A stretch of DNA of 15,271 nucleotides from an uncultured delta proteobacterium. GTDB lineage: Bacteria; RBG-13-61-14; DRUE01. This document shows, one piece after another, positions 3,664 to 11,791 of this stretch (positions are counted from its first letter, which is position 1; the number at the start of each line of letters is the position of its first letter). The notes under the pieces are model-generated. The model was not told the origin of the DNA, ran no database searches, and was given only the letters and a program-made list of their open reading frames with translations. The stretch lies in contig CAIYYW010000359.1 in the NCBI GenBank assembly GCA_903930515.1, positions 1-15,271 on the forward strand. Reading direction: 5' to 3'. The position numbers and the translations under genes are program-made.

Positions 3664-3781
3664 CGTTTTAGAGAAGTTGGTTATGCCGGCAGTTTTTTCG
3701 CTCTTGATTCTCTTGATTTTGCCGCACTTTAAGCCGACCTCGACCGGAAAAATCGCGGATGTTAACGGAGGAATTTGCTTT

Positions 3782-4813
3782 ATGAAGCTGGGAATTATGG
3801 GACTGGCCGGCTCGGGCAGGTCCACGATATTTGAGGCGCTCACGCAGAACCACGGCGCGGAAAGCCGCAAGGTTGAGGACCGGACCGCGTCGGTCAAGGT
3901 CCCGGACTTGAGGGTGGACGACCTGGCGGCATTATATCAACCGTCCAAGATCACCTATGCCCAGGTTGAGTACCTTTTGCCTGCTTTTACCACCGGGGCC
4001 GAGCGTAAAGAAGGCGCGGATGTCTTCAATTATGTTCGCAATTGCGACGCGCTTTTGCACATCGTTCGCAATTTCTCCAACAACGGCTCGGGTCCCGCAA
4101 CCCCGCGCGAGGATTTCCTCAAACTGGAGCGCGAGCTGATCTTCTCGGACTTCCTGGCGGTGGACAAACGGGTGGAACGGATGAACGCGGAGCGGGCCAA
4201 GAACAAAAAAATAGACGAGCAGGAACTGGAGCTTCTGACCGAGTGCCGCAAGGTCCTGGAAAAAGACGCTCCGCTCCGGAGCCGTCCCGAACTGGCCGGC
4301 GCGCCCAAGCTCCGGGGCTATGCCTTCATCTCCGCCAAGCCCATGCTCGCCCTGTTCAACAACGATGACTCGGATACCACGGCGCCTTCGCTGGGCGACT
4401 GCTTTCCATCCGGACCTTGCGAAGTTGTGCGGGGAAAGCTGGAGCGCGAGTTGGCGCAGATGCAGGCGGAGGGCGCCGCGGAATTCTCCCGGGAGTTCGG
4501 CATAGAGCAGTCGGCGATGGACCGCGTGATCCGCCGTTCCCATCAGCTCCTCGGCCTGATCAGCTTTTTCACGGTCGGCGAAGACGAGGTCCGGGCCTGG
4601 ACGGTCAAGCGGAACTCCACCGCAGTTGATTCCGCCGAGGCCATCCACTCGGACATCAAGAAAGGTTTCATCCGGGCGGAGATCGTGAGCTACGACCACC
4701 TGATCCGGTGCGGCTCCGAGCAGGAGGCCAAGCGCAAGGGTTTATCCCGGCTGGAGGGAAAGACATACCTGGTGCAGGACGGCGATATTATTTGCTTCCG
4801 GTTTAATGTCTGA
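3782..4813 (+). CDS. YchF/Obg-like (DUF933) protein with degenerate nucleotide-binding motifs
   Basis: A 343-residue relative of the YchF ATPase. The C-terminal 85 residues are the most conserved part. They carry the TGS-like YchF block: FFTVGEDEVRAWTV at 262-275, then HSDIKKGFIRAEI (289-301) and a final VQDGDIICFRFNV. The N-terminus aligns with the G domain, but the Walker A motif is GLAGSGRST (7-15), with arginine in place of the invariant lysine. The DxxG motif of G3 is also replaced, by LLPAFTTG around 65-72. A charged, probably coiled helical segment lies at 110-165. Start 3782 is chosen because GGAGG (3767-3771) sits 10 nt upstream and the P-loop begins at once, as in the family. The frame stays open upstream to 3677. 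YchF proteins bind ATP and ribosomes; this one may bind nucleotide weakly or not at all. Confidence 0.85.
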   Translation: MKLGIMGLAGSGRSTIFEALTQNHGAESRKVEDRTASVKVPDLRVDDLAALYQPSKITYAQVEYLLPAFTTGAERKEGADVFNYVRNCDALLHIVRNFSNNGSGPATPREDFLKLERELIFSDFLAVDKRVERMNAERAKNKKIDEQELELLTECRKVLEKDAPLRSRPELAGAPKLRGYAFISAKPMLALFNNDDSDTTAPSLGDCFPSGPCEVVRGKLERELAQMQAEGAAEFSREFGIEQSAMDRVIRRSHQLLGLISFFTVGEDEVRAWTVKRNSTAVDSAEAIHSDIKKGFIRAEIVSYDHLIRCGSEQEAKRKGLSRLEGKTYLVQDGDIICFRFNV

Positions 4814-5343: not shown

Positions 5344-5751
5344 ATGAAGCAAAGACGGGTCAGGATTTTAGTGGCCAAGCCCGGCCTGGACGGGCATGAC
5401 CGGGGCGCGAAAGTGGTTGCGCGCGCCTTGCGGGACGCGGGCTTTGATGTCATTTACACGGGTCTTCATCAGACCCCGGAGATGATTGTGGAGTCCGCGG
5501 TCCAGGAAGACGCGGACATCATCGGTTTGAGCATCCTCTCCGGCGCGCATCTGACCATTTTCCCGGAGGTCCTGCGTCTGCTTAAGGAAAAAAAGGCCGG
5601 CCACATCAAGGTTTTCGGGGGAGGGATCATTCCGCCCGAGGATGTGAAAAAGCTGAAGAAGTCGGGCGTGATGGAAATATTTCTGCCTGGAGCCAGCACC
5701 GACCGGATTATTCAATTCGTGAAGGAAAATTTTCAGGAAAAGCAGCGCTGA
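5344..5751 (+). CDS. Cobalamin-binding domain protein (methylmalonyl-CoA mutase C-terminal/small-subunit type)
   Basis: A 135-residue protein consisting only of the B12-binding Rossmann-like domain of the acyl-CoA mutase family. The base-off/His-on signature DGHDRG is at 16-21, with H18 the cobalt ligand. SILSG (63-67) and FGGGIIP (91-97) complete the cofactor-binding set. Archaeal and several bacterial mutases carry this domain as a separate subunit that joins a catalytic TIM-barrel subunit, interconverting methylmalonyl-CoA and succinyl-CoA or related acyl-CoAs. No catalytic subunit lies in this window, so the partner must be encoded elsewhere. No strong ribosome binding site precedes the ATG. 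The gene ends 22 nt before the leader ORF at 5774 and may be cotranscribed with what follows. Confidence 0.92.
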
Positions 5752-5773: not shown

Positions 5774-5812
5774 ATGGCAAAAAGCAAGGCCGGCCCCGGA
5801 AGAATAAGCTGA
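5774..5812 (+). CDS. 12-codon leader ORF overlapping the ceramidase-like start (TGATG)
   Basis: GAAGGAGG (5761-5768) stands 5 nt before ATG 5774, which opens a 12-codon frame (MAKSKAGPGRIS) ending in TGA at 5810-5812. The last A of that stop is the first base of the downstream ATG. The downstream gene has no comparably good ribosome binding site at the right distance. The strong site therefore seems to serve the mini-ORF, with re-initiation at the overlap. It could be a coupling leader, an attenuator-like peptide or a degraded gene start. That it is translated is an inference. Confidence 0.45.
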   Translation: MAKSKAGPGRIS

Positions 5813-7128
5813 TGAGAAAAAAGAACGGCATCCTGGCGCTGATCATTTTGCTTTGCGCCTGCGCCCAGGCGCCGCTCGGGATCAATGACGCGAACCTGGC
5901 CCCGGTGGAAATCAGCGATCAATTCCCGGCCGGGCAACTCAAGGCCGGAGTGGCCAGTGTGGATGTCTCTCCTTCCCGGCCCCAATACCTTGCCGGGTTC
6001 GGCAATAACCGGAAAAGCACCGGCATCAATGACCCGATTTTCGCGCGCGCCGTGGTCTTTGAGCAGGGCGGGCAAAGACTCGCGCTCGTGAGTATTGACG
6101 CAATCGGGATCCAGCGCCACCACCTTCCGCAATATTTTGACAAGATCAAGGAAGTCCCGGCTGACCGCGTGATCATCGCCTGCACCCACGATCATTCCGC
6201 TCCGGACACCATGGGCCTCTGGGGAAAGGTTTATGCGGTTAGCGATGGCAGAGACCTGGAGTGGATTGAATACCTGGCAAGCAAAGTCGGAGAGGCGGTG
6301 GATCAAGCCGCGAAAAGCGCCGAGCCGGTGGAGCTGGTGTTCGGCAAAGGACAGGTGGCGGAGCGCGGGGTCGTGAGGAATGTCCGGGAGCCGCAGTGGC
6401 TGGACCGGGAAGTGGGAGTGATCGGAATCTTTCCGCTCGCGTCAAAAACCCCGAAAGCGGTGCTGGTGAATTTCCAGATGCACGGCGAGACCCTCTGGGG
6501 GGAAAATACCATCATCACTCCCGACTGGCCTGGATTTATGCGCAAGCGTCTGGAAGAAATGTCCGGAGCGCAAACCGCAATCCTTTTCAACGGCGCCTTC
6601 GGGGCAATGGTCACGGTGGATAATTTGATTGACCGGAACGGGAACGAGGCCCACACCTTTGCCGAGGCCGACCGGGTCGGGACCGCCATAGCCGAAACCG
6701 CGAATTCCGCGCTCAATTCCGGGGAGCGGATCAAAAATCCCGGACTGTTCTTCGCCCGTAAAATTTTTTATCTCCCCTCGGATAATCCGCTTTTTAATTT
6801 CTTCTCCAACACCCCGCTGATCACCCGGACTTTTTATCGCGGACATCTCCAGACCGAGGTGAATTATATCCGGATCGGCCCTCTGGAAATGCTCACCTTT
6901 CCCGGAGAGGCTTATCCCAAAATCGGCTTGAATGTCAAACAAAATATGACCGGGAAATATCATTGGCTGATCGGCCTGGCCGATGACGAGCTGGGATACC
7001 TGATCTATCCCTGGGATTATTACAACCGTATATATTCATACGAAATCAGCGCCAGTATGAGCCCGCGCTGGGGCGGATTGCTGGTGGAAAAGCAGGCGTT
7101 GGATTTGGCGAACAAATACTCCAAATAA
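5812..7128 (+). CDS. Neutral/alkaline ceramidase N-terminal domain-like lipoprotein
   Basis: A 438-residue envelope protein. Residues 1-17 form a lipoprotein signal with a plausible lipobox, L14-C-A-C17. The body matches the catalytic domain of the neutral/alkaline non-lysosomal ceramidase family. It opens with KAGVASVDVSP (44-54) and a conserved GIND/FARAVVF strand. THDHSAP (125-131) holds the likely zinc histidines H126 and H128. A further histidine, H224, sits in MHGE, the PGE motif is at 364-366, and a GYLIYPWDY block lies near 395-403. Family enzymes are zinc amidases that cleave N-acyl bonds of ceramides, but bacterial members without sphingolipid neighbours may act on other N-acylated lipids or sugars. 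It is shorter than classical ceramidases because the C-terminal domain is absent. It is coupled to the mini-ORF upstream and lies 14 nt before the first oxidoreductase. Confidence 0.82.
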   Translation: MRKKNGILALIILLCACAQAPLGINDANLAPVEISDQFPAGQLKAGVASVDVSPSRPQYLAGFGNNRKSTGINDPIFARAVVFEQGGQRLALVSIDAIGIQRHHLPQYFDKIKEVPADRVIIACTHDHSAPDTMGLWGKVYAVSDGRDLEWIEYLASKVGEAVDQAAKSAEPVELVFGKGQVAERGVVRNVREPQWLDREVGVIGIFPLASKTPKAVLVNFQMHGETLWGENTIITPDWPGFMRKRLEEMSGAQTAILFNGAFGAMVTVDNLIDRNGNEAHTFAEADRVGTAIAETANSALNSGERIKNPGLFFARKIFYLPSDNPLFNFFSNTPLITRTFYRGHLQTEVNYIRIGPLEMLTFPGEAYPKIGLNVKQNMTGKYHWLIGLADDELGYLIYPWDYYNRIYSYEISASMSPRWGGLLVEKQALDLANKYSK

Positions 7129-7142
7129 TTCAGGAGAGGCGA

Positions 7143-8225
7143 TTGAAAAAACTGGACCAGGTCAGAATCGGGATTATCGGCTGCGGCCGGATCGCGGACC
7201 TCAATATCCTCGGCTACCTTGACCATCCCAAGTGCGAGCTGGTCGCGGTCTGCGACCTCAATCAGGAACTGGCCAAAAGCCGGATGAAGGAATGGGGCGC
7301 GAAAAAGTATTACACCGATTTGGAAAAGCTGGTCTCGGACCCGGAGATCAACGCGGTGGAAATCCTGCTCCCGCATTCGTTACATCTCCCCGCGGTGGTC
7401 TCGGCTGCCCGGGCCGGGAAGCATATCTCGCTTCAGAAGCCGATGTGCATTGAATTGTCGGAAGGCCGGGCAATGGTGGAGGAGGCGAAGCAGGCCGGGG
7501 TCTGGTTTAGGGTTACCGAGAATTTTATGTTCTACCCGCCTTACCGGATGATGAAGCAAATGCTTGACGCCGGCGAAATCGGAGATCCGCTGTCCCTTGA
7601 CATTAAACTCGGAGGAGGCGCCGGGGGATGGTGGGTTCCGCTCAAGACCTGGCTCTGGCATATCTCTCCGGAAAAATGCGGAGGCACGCCCGCGGTTTAT
7701 GACGACGGGTATCACAAGTTGAGCATCGCCAAGTTTATGCTCGGGAACATTGAGAGCGTGAAATGCTGGCTGGATTTCACCTTCGGCGTGGTGGATATCC
7801 CGTCCCTGGTGACCTGGAAGCACAAGAGCGGACAGGTCGGGGTCTGGGAAGTGGAGACCGGGGTGAACCTGATGATGAACCATAAATATTACGGCGCGGA
7901 CGAATGGGTGGAAATCACCGGGACCAAGGGTGTGCTCACCGCGACCCGTTGCACCAGCCGCTTGATGGAAATCCCGCCCCTGATCCTTTACAAGGACGGA
8001 CGGCATTTGGCCATTGACGACATCCGCGACGACTGGGGGGACAGTTTCCACGATGCCGGCTGGCATTTCATTGACTCCCTGATCGCGGGCACACAGCCGG
8101 ACCTTTCCGGAGAGGACGGGCTATACCTGATGAAGTTCTGGAAAGCGATCTGGAGGAGCACTTGCGAGAACCGGGAGGTCCGGCTGGAGGAGATCAAGGA
8201 GGAAAAGGAGCCGGCCAATGCCTGA
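7143..8225 (+). CDS. Gfo/Idh/MocA family oxidoreductase, copy 1
   Basis: A 360-residue NAD(P)-dependent dehydrogenase of the Gfo/Idh/MocA family, which typically oxidises or reduces sugars, cyclitols or nucleotide-sugars. The N-terminal Rossmann motif GIIGCGRIAD (10-19) binds the dinucleotide. The catalytic-lysine motif is QKP at 98-100, a variant of the usual EKP. GGTPAVYDDGYH (180-191) provides D187 and H191 of the active site. The C-terminal alpha/beta domain ends in a charged tail. The start is TTG, with GGAG (7133-7136) 6 nt upstream; the copy at 8501 also starts with TTG. It overlaps the next gene by 8 nt. It is roughly three-quarters identical to copy 2 with no gaps over the aligned length. 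The substrate is unknown. Confidence 0.93.
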   Translation: MKKLDQVRIGIIGCGRIADLNILGYLDHPKCELVAVCDLNQELAKSRMKEWGAKKYYTDLEKLVSDPEINAVEILLPHSLHLPAVVSAARAGKHISLQKPMCIELSEGRAMVEEAKQAGVWFRVTENFMFYPPYRMMKQMLDAGEIGDPLSLDIKLGGGAGGWWVPLKTWLWHISPEKCGGTPAVYDDGYHKLSIAKFMLGNIESVKCWLDFTFGVVDIPSLVTWKHKSGQVGVWEVETGVNLMMNHKYYGADEWVEITGTKGVLTATRCTSRLMEIPPLILYKDGRHLAIDDIRDDWGDSFHDAGWHFIDSLIAGTQPDLSGEDGLYLMKFWKAIWRSTCENREVRLEEIKEEKEPANA

Positions 8226-8499
8226 ATTCCTCGCGAACCTGCTGGCCCGGATCGCCTTTCCGCTGATCCGGTATTGGATTTTACGCCGCTCGGATCGCCG
8301 GCTGGCCAAATCCATCCGGGTGATGCGCCGGATCGCTTTCGCGTTCACCGGGGATCAGATGGTTTTAACCGCGCTGGCAGATGCGGCGGAAATTTTTGAA
8401 CAGGGCGGATGGGGGACCGAGCTGTTGAGAAAGATGGTGAGGGAGACAACCCCGGAATACGCGATTACGATTTTGCGTTCTATTTTGAGGAAGGACTGA
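8218..8499 (+). CDS. 93-residue protein of unknown family, copy 1
   Basis: A 93-residue, mostly helical-looking protein. Residues 4-22 are hydrophobic with scattered arginines, suggesting an amphipathic or membrane-touching helix, followed by a very basic stretch (23-38). The motifs shared with the second copy are AF-x-TGD (41-46) and AEIFEQ (57-62), with a common R-S-x-L ending. ATG 8218 lies inside the end of the preceding oxidoreductase gene (8-nt overlap), with AAGGAG about 7 nt upstream, so translation is coupled. I do not recognise a family. The pairing with an oxidoreductase in both modules suggests a partner or assembly subunit, which is inference. Confidence 0.82.
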   Translation: MPEFLANLLARIAFPLIRYWILRRSDRRLAKSIRVMRRIAFAFTGDQMVLTALADAAEIFEQGGWGTELLRKMVRETTPEYAITILRSILRKD

Positions 8500-8500
8500 A

Positions 8501-9571
8501 TTGGAAAAGCTGGATCGGGTGAAAATCGGGATCATCGGCTGCGGCCGGATCGCGGACCTCAATATCCTCGGATACCTGGACCATCCCAAGTGCGACCTGA
8601 TCGCGGTCTGCGATCTCTCGGAGGATCTGGCCCGGCAACGGATGAAGGAATGGGGCGCGAGAAAATATTACACCGATTTTGAAAAGCTGGTCTCGGACCC
8701 GGAGATCAACGCGGTGGAAATTTTGCTTCCGCACCGGTTGCACCTTCCCGCGGTGCTTTCCGCGGCCAAGGCCAAGAAGCATATCTCCCTCCAGAAGCCG
8801 ATGTGCGTGGATTTATGGGAAGGCCGGAAAATGATTGAGGCGGCCAAGGAAGCAGGGGTCTGGTTCCGGGTCACGGAGAATTTTATTTTCTATCCGCCTT
8901 ACCGGTTGCAGAAGCAATTTTTGGATTCCGGAGAAATCGGCGAGCCGCTCTCTGTCAACATCAGGCTCTGCGGCGCGGCCGGGGGATGGTGGGTTCCGCT
9001 CAAGACCTGGCTCTGGCGGCTGGACTTGCAGGAATGCGGGGGCACCCCCAGCGTTTATGACGACGGCTATCACAAGCTGTCCATTGCCAAGTTCCTGCTC
9101 GGAGAAATTGACACGGTCAAAACCTGGATTGACTTCACCTTCGGATCAGTGGACACGCCCGCGCTGGTAAGCTGGAAATATAAAAGCGGTCAGGTCGGGG
9201 TCTGGGAGGTCACCACCGCCCCGAACCTTCTTACCAATGGAAAATATTACGGCGCGGACGAATGGGTGGAAGTCACCGGCACCAAGGGCGTGCTCACGGC
9301 GAACCGCTGCACCAGCCGGTTGATGGAAATACCGCCGCTGGTCCTTTATAAAGATGGAAAGCACCTGGCCATTGACGACCTCCGCGACGACTGGGGAGAC
9401 AGCTTCCACGATGCCGGCTGGCATTTTATTGACTCGCTCCTGGAAGGCAAGCAGCCTCTGCTCACCGGCGAGGACGGGCTTTACCTGATGAAATTCTGGA
9501 AAGCGATCTGGAAGAGCCACTCTGAGAACCGCGAGATCAGAATGGACGATCTTGGCGAGGATGATCGTTAA
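8501..9571 (+). CDS. Gfo/Idh/MocA family oxidoreductase, copy 2
   Basis: A 356-residue paralogue of the gene at 7143, aligning without gaps. It keeps every functional residue at the same position: GCGRIAD in the Rossmann motif (13-19), QKP at 98-100, and D187 and H191 in VYDDGYH. Differences cluster at 134-180 and at the C-terminus, where substrate specificity or partner contacts may differ. The start is TTG, preceded by AAGGA (8491-8495) with 5-nt spacing and only 1 nt after the stop of the upstream small gene. Keeping two active near-copies in one operon suggests either a hetero-oligomer or two related substrates. The substrate is unknown. Confidence 0.93.
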   Translation: MEKLDRVKIGIIGCGRIADLNILGYLDHPKCDLIAVCDLSEDLARQRMKEWGARKYYTDFEKLVSDPEINAVEILLPHRLHLPAVLSAAKAKKHISLQKPMCVDLWEGRKMIEAAKEAGVWFRVTENFIFYPPYRLQKQFLDSGEIGEPLSVNIRLCGAAGGWWVPLKTWLWRLDLQECGGTPSVYDDGYHKLSIAKFLLGEIDTVKTWIDFTFGSVDTPALVSWKYKSGQVGVWEVTTAPNLLTNGKYYGADEWVEVTGTKGVLTANRCTSRLMEIPPLVLYKDGKHLAIDDLRDDWGDSFHDAGWHFIDSLLEGKQPLLTGEDGLYLMKFWKAIWKSHSENREIRMDDLGEDDR

Positions 9572-9572
9572 A

Positions 9573-9854
9573 ATGCCGCGATTTTTGCAAAAAGCGATTC
9601 CCAACCTGATCTTCGCCGGGTTCCGGTGGTGGCTGCTGATCAATTCCAACCGCAGTCTCGCGTTCCAGTTTAAGCTCGCCCAGCGCGTCGCCTTCGCAAT
9701 TACCGGGGACCGGTTTCTGAAAAATGTGATCGGCGAATTGGCGGAAATTTTTGAACAGGAAGGCAAAGAGGCTGAAACCGCGCGCAATTTGTTCCGGCAG
9801 GCGGACCGCGAATATTCAGCCGCGATCGTGAGAAGTTTTTTGCAGGAGGACTGA
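9573..9854 (+). CDS. 93-residue protein of unknown family, copy 2
   Basis: A paralogue of the protein at 8218. With ATG 9573 as start it is also exactly 93 residues and aligns from the first methionine to the last residue without a gap, with 36 identical positions. This is the reason for rejecting the upstream in-frame TTG (9552) and ATG (9561). GAGGA at 9557-9561 lies 11 nt before the start. It shares the AF-x-TGD and AEIFEQ motifs, but its N-terminal helix is richer in tryptophan and less arginine-rich. It begins 1 nt after the copy 2 oxidoreductase stop, and its own stop overlaps the next start as TGATG. Function unknown. Confidence 0.82.
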   Translation: MPRFLQKAIPNLIFAGFRWWLLINSNRSLAFQFKLAQRVAFAITGDRFLKNVIGELAEIFEQEGKEAETARNLFRQADREYSAAIVRSFLQED

Positions 9855-10843
9855 TGGGATTCTGGCAAAGACTGACGAAATTGGAAGACCGGGTTGACCC
9901 GGTCCGGGTGGCGCTGATCGGGGACGATTCCAGGGAGCGCAAGCTTCTGGAAAGCGCGTATCGGCAAAATCCCAAGACAGAAATTGTCTTTTCCGGCTCC
10001 GGCGAAGATCTGCCAAAAGCACATAAACAGGGAGATGCGGAGTTGGTGGAAATATTCGCGCCTGCTGAAAAAAGGGCGGAATTGGCCGGGCAATTCCTTG
10101 AGGCCGGGTTCAATGTCTCGCTCGGAATGCCCTGCTCGCTGGAAGCCGGGGAAACCGATGCGCTCAAATCCAGGGGCGAGTTGAGGGGAAAACAGGTCCG
10201 GGTCAGGAACCACTGCCTGTACTACCAGCCGTTTCAAAAAGCCCGGGGGTTGCTGGACCAGGAAAAAATCGGTTACGCCACCATGCTCAGATTGGTGGTG
10301 AAGCGGAACCAGGCGCCGGATAAAAATTTTGACCGCGGAAAGTGGATCCTGGAAAACGAGAGCGGATATTTGGCGCTGGCGGAATTTTTTTACGGGCCGA
10401 TGGAAAAGATTTTCGTGACCACCGGCGCGAGCGGAGATAAAACCGTCGGATCCTTTTTGATCGGCTTTAAATTCAAGACCCCTCACCGGATGGGATACTT
10501 GCTTTCGGATTTCGCGCCCGGGCTTCAAATCCGGACTTTCACCGAGCCGGTCTTCCGCCAGGTCTGGGCCACCGGCACCGCCGGGGTGATTATGGTCAAC
10601 CGCGGGGAGGGCCAGCTCTGGAGGGCGCCGGTCTTATGGCTCCGGGCGAAAAATTATTCGCATACTTATGAAGACCTGAAGGACGGCTGGGAAGAAATAT
10701 ATCCGGCGATGGTCAACGACGCGGTGGGCGCGCTTAGGGAAAACCGGCCCCTGATCTCCGGGCTGGCGTCCGCGCAACGGGGGATCCGGATCGCGGGCGC
10801 GGCCAAAAAGGCCATGGAACTGGGACAGGAGATTGTGATTTAG
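9854..10843 (+). CDS. Degenerate Gfo/Idh/MocA-like protein (probable pseudo-oxidoreductase)
   Basis: A 329-residue diverged relative of the two preceding oxidoreductases, alignable along its length. For example, the C-terminal GTAGVIMVNR region matches GTKGVLTATR in copy 1, and the YEDLKDGW region matches IDDIRDDW. The cofactor motif GIIGCGRIAD has become ALIGDDSRER (20-29). The catalytic QKP is GMP, with methionine 92 replacing lysine. The active-site D and H are aligned to glutamate and glycine near 167-171. It therefore should not bind NAD(P) in the usual way or catalyse hydride transfer. The frame is intact, the start overlaps the previous stop (TGATG), and AGGAGG (9844-9849) precedes it. 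It thus looks like a maintained non-catalytic protein, perhaps a structural or regulatory subunit. Confidence 0.85.
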   Translation: MGFWQRLTKLEDRVDPVRVALIGDDSRERKLLESAYRQNPKTEIVFSGSGEDLPKAHKQGDAELVEIFAPAEKRAELAGQFLEAGFNVSLGMPCSLEAGETDALKSRGELRGKQVRVRNHCLYYQPFQKARGLLDQEKIGYATMLRLVVKRNQAPDKNFDRGKWILENESGYLALAEFFYGPMEKIFVTTGASGDKTVGSFLIGFKFKTPHRMGYLLSDFAPGLQIRTFTEPVFRQVWATGTAGVIMVNRGEGQLWRAPVLWLRAKNYSHTYEDLKDGWEEIYPAMVNDAVGALRENRPLISGLASAQRGIRIAGAAKKAMELGQEIVI

Positions 10844-10858: not shown

Positions 10859-11791
10859 CTATTCCACGATCCCGCTATTGATCAGAACCCGGTAGAGGTT
10901 TTCCGCGATCCATCCGTATCCGGGAGGCTTGGGATGGATGTCTTCAAATAACACCTGGTTCCGCAATTCCAGGTTGAAAGTTCCGTCCGGGGCATAAAGG
11001 CGGCTCTCAAAATAAGCATAATTGTCCGCCAGGGGCGCGCCCATTTTTTCCGCCACCTGTCTGGTCAGTCCGTTGGGCACCTCGTAATTATGCTCGCGGT
11101 CTCCGGCATAGGTCATCAGCACAATCGCCACCCCATCCGCCCGGCAAGATTCCACGATCTTGATCAAATCCTGGATAAACCGCCTCTGGATCCCCCGGAG
11201 TTCTTCATTTCCCGTGACCGGGTAGCCGCGTCCGCGATGCACGATAATCTCTCCGGTGTCGCGGCGGCGGACTACCCAGTTGGAATCATGCTGAATGCCC
11301 AGGGCATAGACCATCGAGACCAATTTATACAATTTCAGGCCATATAAAAATTTCTGCGCCAAATTTTCATCCTGGCCGGACACATTCCAGCGGTTGTTCA
11401 CCCCCACCATTACCACCAGGGCCGCGGGATGATATTTCCTGAAAATGCGGGGAAGGTCGTTCAGGATTTCGGTGGAGTTCTGCCCCGGAGCGCCCAGGTT
11501 GATCACCGTGTAATTTTTTCCGTTCCGCCGGAGCAGCTTTTCCAACTGAGCCGGATACGCCTGTTCCGGCTTGAGGTATAGCCCATAGGTGTTGGAATCG
11601 CCGATGCAGACCATCACCCGGCTTCCCGGCGCGATCCCCTTTTCCCGCGCCCGTCCGAAAACCAGGCCCGCCAGCTGAAGGACCAATTCAAACAGGACCA
11701 GGAATAGGAGTACCGCCAGCGCGGAAAAAATCAACCGCTTGAAAATTCCGCGGCGCGCGTTCCGTGCTTTTTCCGGTTCCGGGTTTGCCAT
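10859..11791 (-). CDS. Membrane-anchored SGNH/GDSL hydrolase-like protein
   Basis: A 310-residue protein with a charged N-terminus, one hydrophobic anchor (about 20-46), then an SGNH-hydrolase domain facing the periplasm. Block I is GDSNTYG (64-70) with nucleophile S66. Block II is NLGAPGQNS with G100, and block III is GVNN with N132. Block V is EDIHP (283-287), where H286 is present but a glutamate occupies the position usually held by aspartate in DxxH. Such enzymes remove acetyl or other acyl esters from polysaccharides or lipids. It converges with the operon ending at 10843, leaving 15 nt. No ribosome binding site is evident, and a TATAAT box 8 nt before the ATG suggests a leaderless message. 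Confidence 0.85.
   Translation of the reverse strand: MANPEPEKARNARRGIFKRLIFSALAVLLFLVLFELVLQLAGLVFGRAREKGIAPGSRVMVCIGDSNTYGLYLKPEQAYPAQLEKLLRRNGKNYTVINLGAPGQNSTEILNDLPRIFRKYHPAALVVMVGVNNRWNVSGQDENLAQKFLYGLKLYKLVSMVYALGIQHDSNWVVRRRDTGEIIVHRGRGYPVTGNEELRGIQRRFIQDLIKIVESCRADGVAIVLMTYAGDREHNYEVPNGLTRQVAEKMGAPLADNYAYFESRLYAPDGTFNLELRNQVLFEDIHPKPPGYGWIAENLYRVLINSGIVE

Follow-up and report, generated by a model that had tools for sequence, protein, structure and literature searches.

Few dehydrogenases are commoner than the Gfo/Idh/MocA enzymes, which are usually regarded as stand-alone gene products. Inositol 2-dehydrogenase (IolG), glucose-fructose oxidoreductase and scyllo-inositol dehydrogenase possess two domains and a set of catalytic residues that are also present in g1 and g2, the two dehydrogenases of the locus described here. 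The window enzyme differs from these known dehydrogenases in having a conserved, adjoining small partner and an inactive paralogue. Its best NCBIfam match is to the IolG equivalog TIGR04380, at 111 bits for g1 and 109 bits for g2, which falls far short of the cut-off of 355 bits and places both proteins outside that family. Among inactive relatives, the yeast protein Gal80 is a regulator that has the Gfo fold but no enzymatic activity. It resembles g3, the third dehydrogenase-like protein of our locus, in being inactive, but it regulates transcription in yeast and has neither an operon partner nor a small protein. The Pfam domain of Gal80 (PF22685) gave only a weak match in the Pfam scan.

A comparable architecture is known from serine palmitoyltransferase, in which LCB2 is the catalytic subunit, LCB1 lacks the catalytic lysine, and a small subunit boosts activity and affects chain-length preference (PMC3794620). 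A catalytic subunit, an inactive paralogue without the catalytic lysine and a small subunit (ssSPT/Tsc3) are thus arranged much as the genes of our locus suggest. Serine palmitoyltransferase is, however, an unrelated PLP enzyme, whereas the window proteins belong to the Gfo/Idh/MocA group and do not have the PLP fold. The likeness is therefore analogous: it would concern how the parts may work together, not common descent. The serine palmitoyltransferase complex is proven while that of our locus is predicted. Nothing relevant on inactive or heteromeric Gfo/Idh/MocA proteins, or on SCP2 fusions, turned up in literature searches, which is weak evidence of absence given that the slashed family name searches poorly. 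In this locus, a known enzyme family appears in a new arrangement, together with a small protein family that is unmatched in the libraries searched.

Gene layout of the locus

The window, that is, the whole stretch of 15,271 nucleotides that was analysed, is the entire contig C359; the metagenome-assembled genome to which it belongs measures 3.6 Mb. The nearest relatives of this genome are a lake-sediment bin named "delta proteobacterium" (CAIUDS01; locus L018), which is a sister species, and Deltaproteobacteria bacterium RBG_13_61_14 (loci L019/L098). All five genes of the locus are on the + strand. The first copy of the catalytic Gfo/Idh/MocA dehydrogenase, g1 (7143–8225; 360 aa, TTG start), is followed by the first copy of a small helical protein, s1 (8218–8499; 93 aa). 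The second copies of both come next, namely g2 (8501–9571; 356 aa, TTG start) and s2 (9573–9854; 93 aa counted from the ATG, the mechanical open reading frame beginning at 9552). The last gene, g3 (9854–10843; 329 aa), encodes the non-catalytic Gfo/Idh/MocA paralogue.

The initial annotation had described an oxidoreductase and a 93-aa protein occurring twice in succession, then an inactive relative, and the five open reading frames at 7143–10843 are real and lie where it had placed them. The close spacing that it had reported (1-nt gaps, overlaps and a 14-nt gap) also holds, with junctions of −8, +1, +1 and −1 nt along g1-s1-g2-s2-g3 and a gap of 14 nt between a ceramidase-like gene and g1. 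A promoter and terminator scan gave counts that match the expectation from shuffled sequence.

Catalytic dehydrogenases and their inactive paralogue

The NAD-binding Rossmann domain (PF01408) is recognised in g1 at 77.7 bits and in g2 at 71.1 bits, against a cut-off of 24. The C-terminal alpha/beta domain (PF02894/PF22725) scores above cut-off in every case, with 35.2 bits for PF02894 and 53.6 bits for PF22725 in g1. The two proteins share 78% identity. The lysine of the QKP motif and the DDGYH motif are both retained in g1, and the catalytic lysine of (E/Q)KP and the Asp..His residues are present in 32/32 dehydrogenases compared. The g1 orthologue of the sister species is 84% identical, while the orthologues of g2 are 82% identical in the sister species and 61% identical in RBG_13_61_14.

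No Pfam match was obtained for g3. It aligns with g1 and g2 at ~22% identity in BLAST (E about 1e-10), and its profile matches Gfo/Idh/MocA structures in the PDB with E values down to 1e-10. Together with the model of a fused orthologue described below, these results agree that g3 belongs to the Gfo/Idh/MocA fold. In place of the catalytic QKP, g3 has GMP, and the Asp and His of DDGYH are gone. With lysine and histidine both lost, its residues indicate that g3 is not an active Gfo/Idh/MocA enzyme. The histidine is kept in 0/15 inactive copies with data and the lysine is lost in 10/16; as the other 6/16 retain the lysine, some residual binding of cofactor or substrate is possible. The sister-species orthologue of g3 is 71% identical. 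Values of dN/dS (NG86, window against sister species) range from 0.12 to 0.27 over all five genes, denoting purifying selection, and the value of 0.20 for g3 shows that it is a maintained gene and not a decaying one. In RBG_13_61_14, codon 24 of the inactive paralogue (L098 9496–10479, + strand) is an in-frame TAA, and a few successive residues are masked; either translation starts later, or the assembly is wrong here, or the gene is broken.

In the maximum-likelihood tree, the inactive copies form a single clade (100/99), and the triad dehydrogenases form another (99/98), which includes a solo copy of genome G390. The inactive lineage is thus ancient, selected and of single origin, although the point at which it attaches to the tree is unsure because of long branches. 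The window genes g1 and g2 group with g1 and g2 of the sister species, respectively, with mixed support for the g2 pair (96/44). This pairing places the duplication before the split of the two species and after their split from RBG_13_61_14. Distance matrices of the catalytic and inactive copies correlate (r 0.86, 0/5000 permutations), in a test that ignores the species tree and mainly reflects shared inheritance.

The small protein family

The products of s1 and s2 are 39% identical across all 93 aa (E 2e-24), and their sister-species orthologues are 55% and 69% identical, respectively. The small protein has no match in Pfam or NCBIfam. An AlphaFold (AF2) model of s1 consists of five helices with a mean pLDDT of 86, and a Foldseek search with this model gave no PDB match with an E value below 0.001. 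Homology within the family was assessed by held-out profiles, each built from the small proteins of some phyla and searched against those of others. The profile of standalone small proteins from the second and third phyla (see below) matches the window small proteins at 3e-16 and 4e-07, and the profile from the phylum of the window alone matches small proteins of the other two with E values from 1e-10 to, at the weakest, about 0.01. The small proteins are therefore one family, for which the searched libraries gave no match. The family is present in 9/386 genomes sampled, every time at the triad and nowhere else.

The N-terminal half of the small protein is basic and partly amphipathic. As this amphipathic character is moderate and uneven across the family, membrane binding by the small protein can only be guessed at. 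A role as a transmembrane anchor was considered and rejected, the 19-residue hydropathy maxima of 0.75–1.58 revealing no clear transmembrane helix.

Conservation of the triad in three phyla

The name of RBG_13_61_14 suggests that this genome, the sister species and the genome of the window belong to the candidate phylum RBG-13-61-14, which has been listed as a phylum in a published survey (PMC13170169). A scan of named genomes by short peptide patterns recovered, beyond the two nearest genomes, distant relatives only. Genes in the neighbourhoods were called with a codon-usage caller. The sister species has the same order, g1-s1-g2-s2-g3, followed as in the window by a convergent gene for a GDSL-type hydrolase, while RBG_13_61_14 has a single copy each of the dehydrogenase, the small and the inactive gene. 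Searching relatives brought up the dehydrogenase in further phyla as well, and the genomes other than the sister species have single triads. The conserved unit is the triad of dehydrogenase, small protein and pseudo-dehydrogenase, and the repeated dehydrogenase–small protein pair is an addition common to the two species of this genus. The duplicated module of the initial annotation accordingly survives as a repeat of that pair, but duplication is not the essence of the module because other genomes have single triads.

The triad, or a version with the small and inactive genes fused, occurs in 3/3, 7/7 and 5/7 genomes of three small phyla, the locus of a sixth genome in the last ending at a contig end. 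In the phylum of G037, the dehydrogenase is found in 7/7 genomes, each with an adjoining small protein and inactive paralogue, and G102 has an additional second locus. In the phylum of G263 and G127, the dehydrogenase is found in 6/7 genomes, with the small and inactive genes adjoining in five; the inactive gene of G263 is truncated by the contig end, and the contig of G391 stops at this place. The seventh genome, which is 67% complete, has no dehydrogenase match. In G100, G101 and G002, the reading frame of the small or the inactive gene is interrupted, probably through assembly errors. Most triad junctions are tight or overlapping, and the gene neighbourhoods outside the triad vary between genomes.

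Homologous dehydrogenases are therefore not always found alone: partners accompany those of the triad clade, and more distant relatives are solo. The wider dehydrogenase group (E up to 1e-55) is represented in 20/386 genomes. Several of its members are solo, including an extra copy within the triad clade itself (G390:C108), so that the enzyme fold does not in general need partners.

The small protein and the inactive dehydrogenase form a single chain in G102:C9 and G103, with the small protein at the N-terminal end, and the profile of standalone small proteins from the second and third phyla matches the fused N-termini at 4e-15 and 9e-12. That two of the three components are joined in one chain is the best indirect evidence of contact between them. 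The model of the fused G103 protein (pLDDT 85.7) begins with a five-helix domain, which a poorly defined linker connects to a Gfo/Idh/MocA fold that matches scyllo-inositol dehydrogenase (Foldseek E 4e-15). Residues 110–117 of the linker are of low confidence, and the placement of the two domains relative to each other is unreliable.

Genes flanking the triad

The ceramidase-like lipoprotein gene (5812–7128, + strand) had been taken to precede and join the operon module. Its product matches the neutral ceramidase N-terminal domain PF04734 at 43.3 bits (cut-off 32.1) over positions 4–255 of 509; the second half of the model is unmatched, and the protein is a putative ceramidase only. The assignment to PF04734 therefore stands, but membership in the module was rejected, as the corresponding position in the sister species has no ceramidase-like gene. 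The best homologue in that genome is on another contig (35% identity), and homologues elsewhere share only 27–35% identity. We treat this gene as a neighbour outside the conserved module.

A gene for a B12-binding protein of the methylmalonyl-CoA mutase C-terminal-domain type (5344–5751, + strand; TIGR00640, 170 bits) lies further upstream. Its counterpart in the sister species (L018 2665–3069, + strand) overlaps g1 by 4 nt. Its membership is uncertain; it is present in both species of the genus and absent beside the triads of other phyla, and it was accordingly set aside as a neighbour only. Downstream, the GDSL-type hydrolase gene (10859–11791, − strand) is convergent to g3 and conserved beside the module in the sister species (68%).

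Two further genes of the window were recorded. The first (451–1812, + strand) encodes an O-methyltransferase (PF00891, PF08100) whose N-terminal stretch is weakly like a thioredoxin-like 2Fe-2S ferredoxin (PF01257, 21.5 bits, below cut-off), possibly representing an unusual fusion. The second (3779–4813, + strand) is YchF-like, with a C-terminal YchF domain at 123 bits and no GTPase domain reported; its P-loop, GLAGSGRST, has an arginine where lysine is usual.

A possible lipid-linked substrate

SCP2 domains bind lipids, and UbiJ is a bacterial case (PMC9499169). We found a C-terminal SCP2 domain (PF02036) on four dehydrogenases of a sister clade, in G353, G135, G270 and G261, with scores of 24–46 bits in the three that were scanned. 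These Gfo/Idh/MocA-SCP2 dehydrogenases (L143 3292–4791; L144 7289–8773; L145 6927–8411; L150 1900–3366) form one clade and have linkers rich in basic residues. The C-terminal extension of such 490-aa dehydrogenases was considered as a possible fused copy of the small protein, which was rejected as the extension is SCP2. Their dehydrogenase part falls in a group adjoining the triad clade (92/87). Unlike the triad, they combine enzyme and lipid carrier in one chain, and neither a small nor an inactive gene lies beside them.

Beside the triad in G098, G099 and G100, a divergent gene encodes an SCP2-like protein of 253–254 aa (L117 8422–9183; L118 6288–7049; L120 6719–7483), with scores of 26, 22 and 20 bits, respectively (cut-off 21). 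Genes for a class III aminotransferase, a hexapeptide protein and a DegT protein come after the SCP2-like gene in G098 (L117). The window triad itself has no SCP2 domain. Because of these SCP2 links, both fusions and adjoining genes, a lipid-bound sugar or cyclitol is suggested as the substrate. A lipid-linked substrate is thus plausible, and among the sugar, cyclitol and lipid head group that had been proposed, the SCP2 links favour one that is bound to lipid.

Proposed function and alternatives

Gene order, homology, catalytic-residue loss, the single origin of the inactive lineage, co-occurrence and fusion are computational results, and we infer a physical complex with defined subunit roles, a lipid-linked substrate and a direction of reaction. 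We consider it fairly likely that the locus encodes a hetero-oligomeric, NAD(P)-dependent Gfo/Idh/MocA dehydrogenase composed of a catalytic subunit, an inactive paralogue and a small adaptor. The proposal of a hetero-oligomer in the initial annotation has good indirect support from the order kept over three phyla, the restriction of the small protein to these loci in the sample, the fusion in two genomes and the ancient, selected inactive lineage. It is probable that the dehydrogenase, the small protein and the inactive copy act together as a unit, and their substrate may be bound to a lipid.

In such a machine, g1 and g2 would use their retained Rossmann cofactor site, lysine and Asp/His residues for hydride transfer, oxidising or reducing a hydroxyl or carbonyl of a sugar- or cyclitol-like group. 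Having kept the overall fold without the chemistry, g3 would most likely bind the catalytic subunit and serve it in a structural or allosteric role. The s1 and s2 proteins would be five-helix adaptors, probably docking the inactive subunit and perhaps a membrane or hydrophobic substrate. Duplication of the dehydrogenase–small protein pair in this genus would have given a pair of catalytic subunits that have a small partner apiece, share one common inactive subunit and may differ in substrate. More tentatively, one may picture a three-component dehydrogenase, of a type not described before, that depends on its dedicated inactive paralogue and new five-helix adaptor, is docked at the membrane and oxidises a sugar or cyclitol lipid head. 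This full picture, in which the assembly is kept in three little-known phyla and sister lineages instead fuse an SCP2 lipid-carrier, is possible but on balance doubtful.

The inactive paralogue could instead, like yeast Gal80, be a sensor or regulator: on binding NAD or some ligand it would control the enzyme or the expression of the enzyme, without being a constitutive subunit. A fold kept without catalysis, and the variable cofactor-loop and lysine remnants in some inactive members, would fit such a role. We nevertheless consider it unlikely, as neither a regulator gene nor a DNA-binding domain recurs next to the triads, and its close coupling and fusion to the small protein speak for a partner of fixed stoichiometry. 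A mere set of neighbours inherited together within one pathway, for example with two substrate-specific dehydrogenases, and forming no complex is rather improbable: over three phyla just these three genes remain together while the flanks change, the small protein occurs nowhere else in the 386-genome sample, and small and inactive proteins are fused. This explanation would, however, agree with the sugar-type surroundings of solo relatives (DegT, xylose-isomerase-like, epimerase and GT2 genes), and the divergence of g1 and g2 could mean substrate specialisation. Very unlikely, finally, is the gain by the inactive paralogue of another enzymatic activity without the Lys/His pair, for although it is under purifying selection and some columns are strictly conserved (G147, G201, G233, G260-T261-G263), these are mostly glycines and positions also found in the parent family, the inactive sequences are poorly conserved (mean pairwise identity 0.26, compared with 0.49 among catalytic copies) and no new conserved polar cluster was seen.

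If the hetero-oligomeric dehydrogenase is real, its conserved inactive partner and small adaptor would mean that a division of labour between subunits has evolved in the Gfo/Idh/MocA group too. The adaptor would then also represent a new family of small proteins, and the SCP2 links would indicate a chemistry of lipid-linked sugars or cyclitols that has so far gone unseen.
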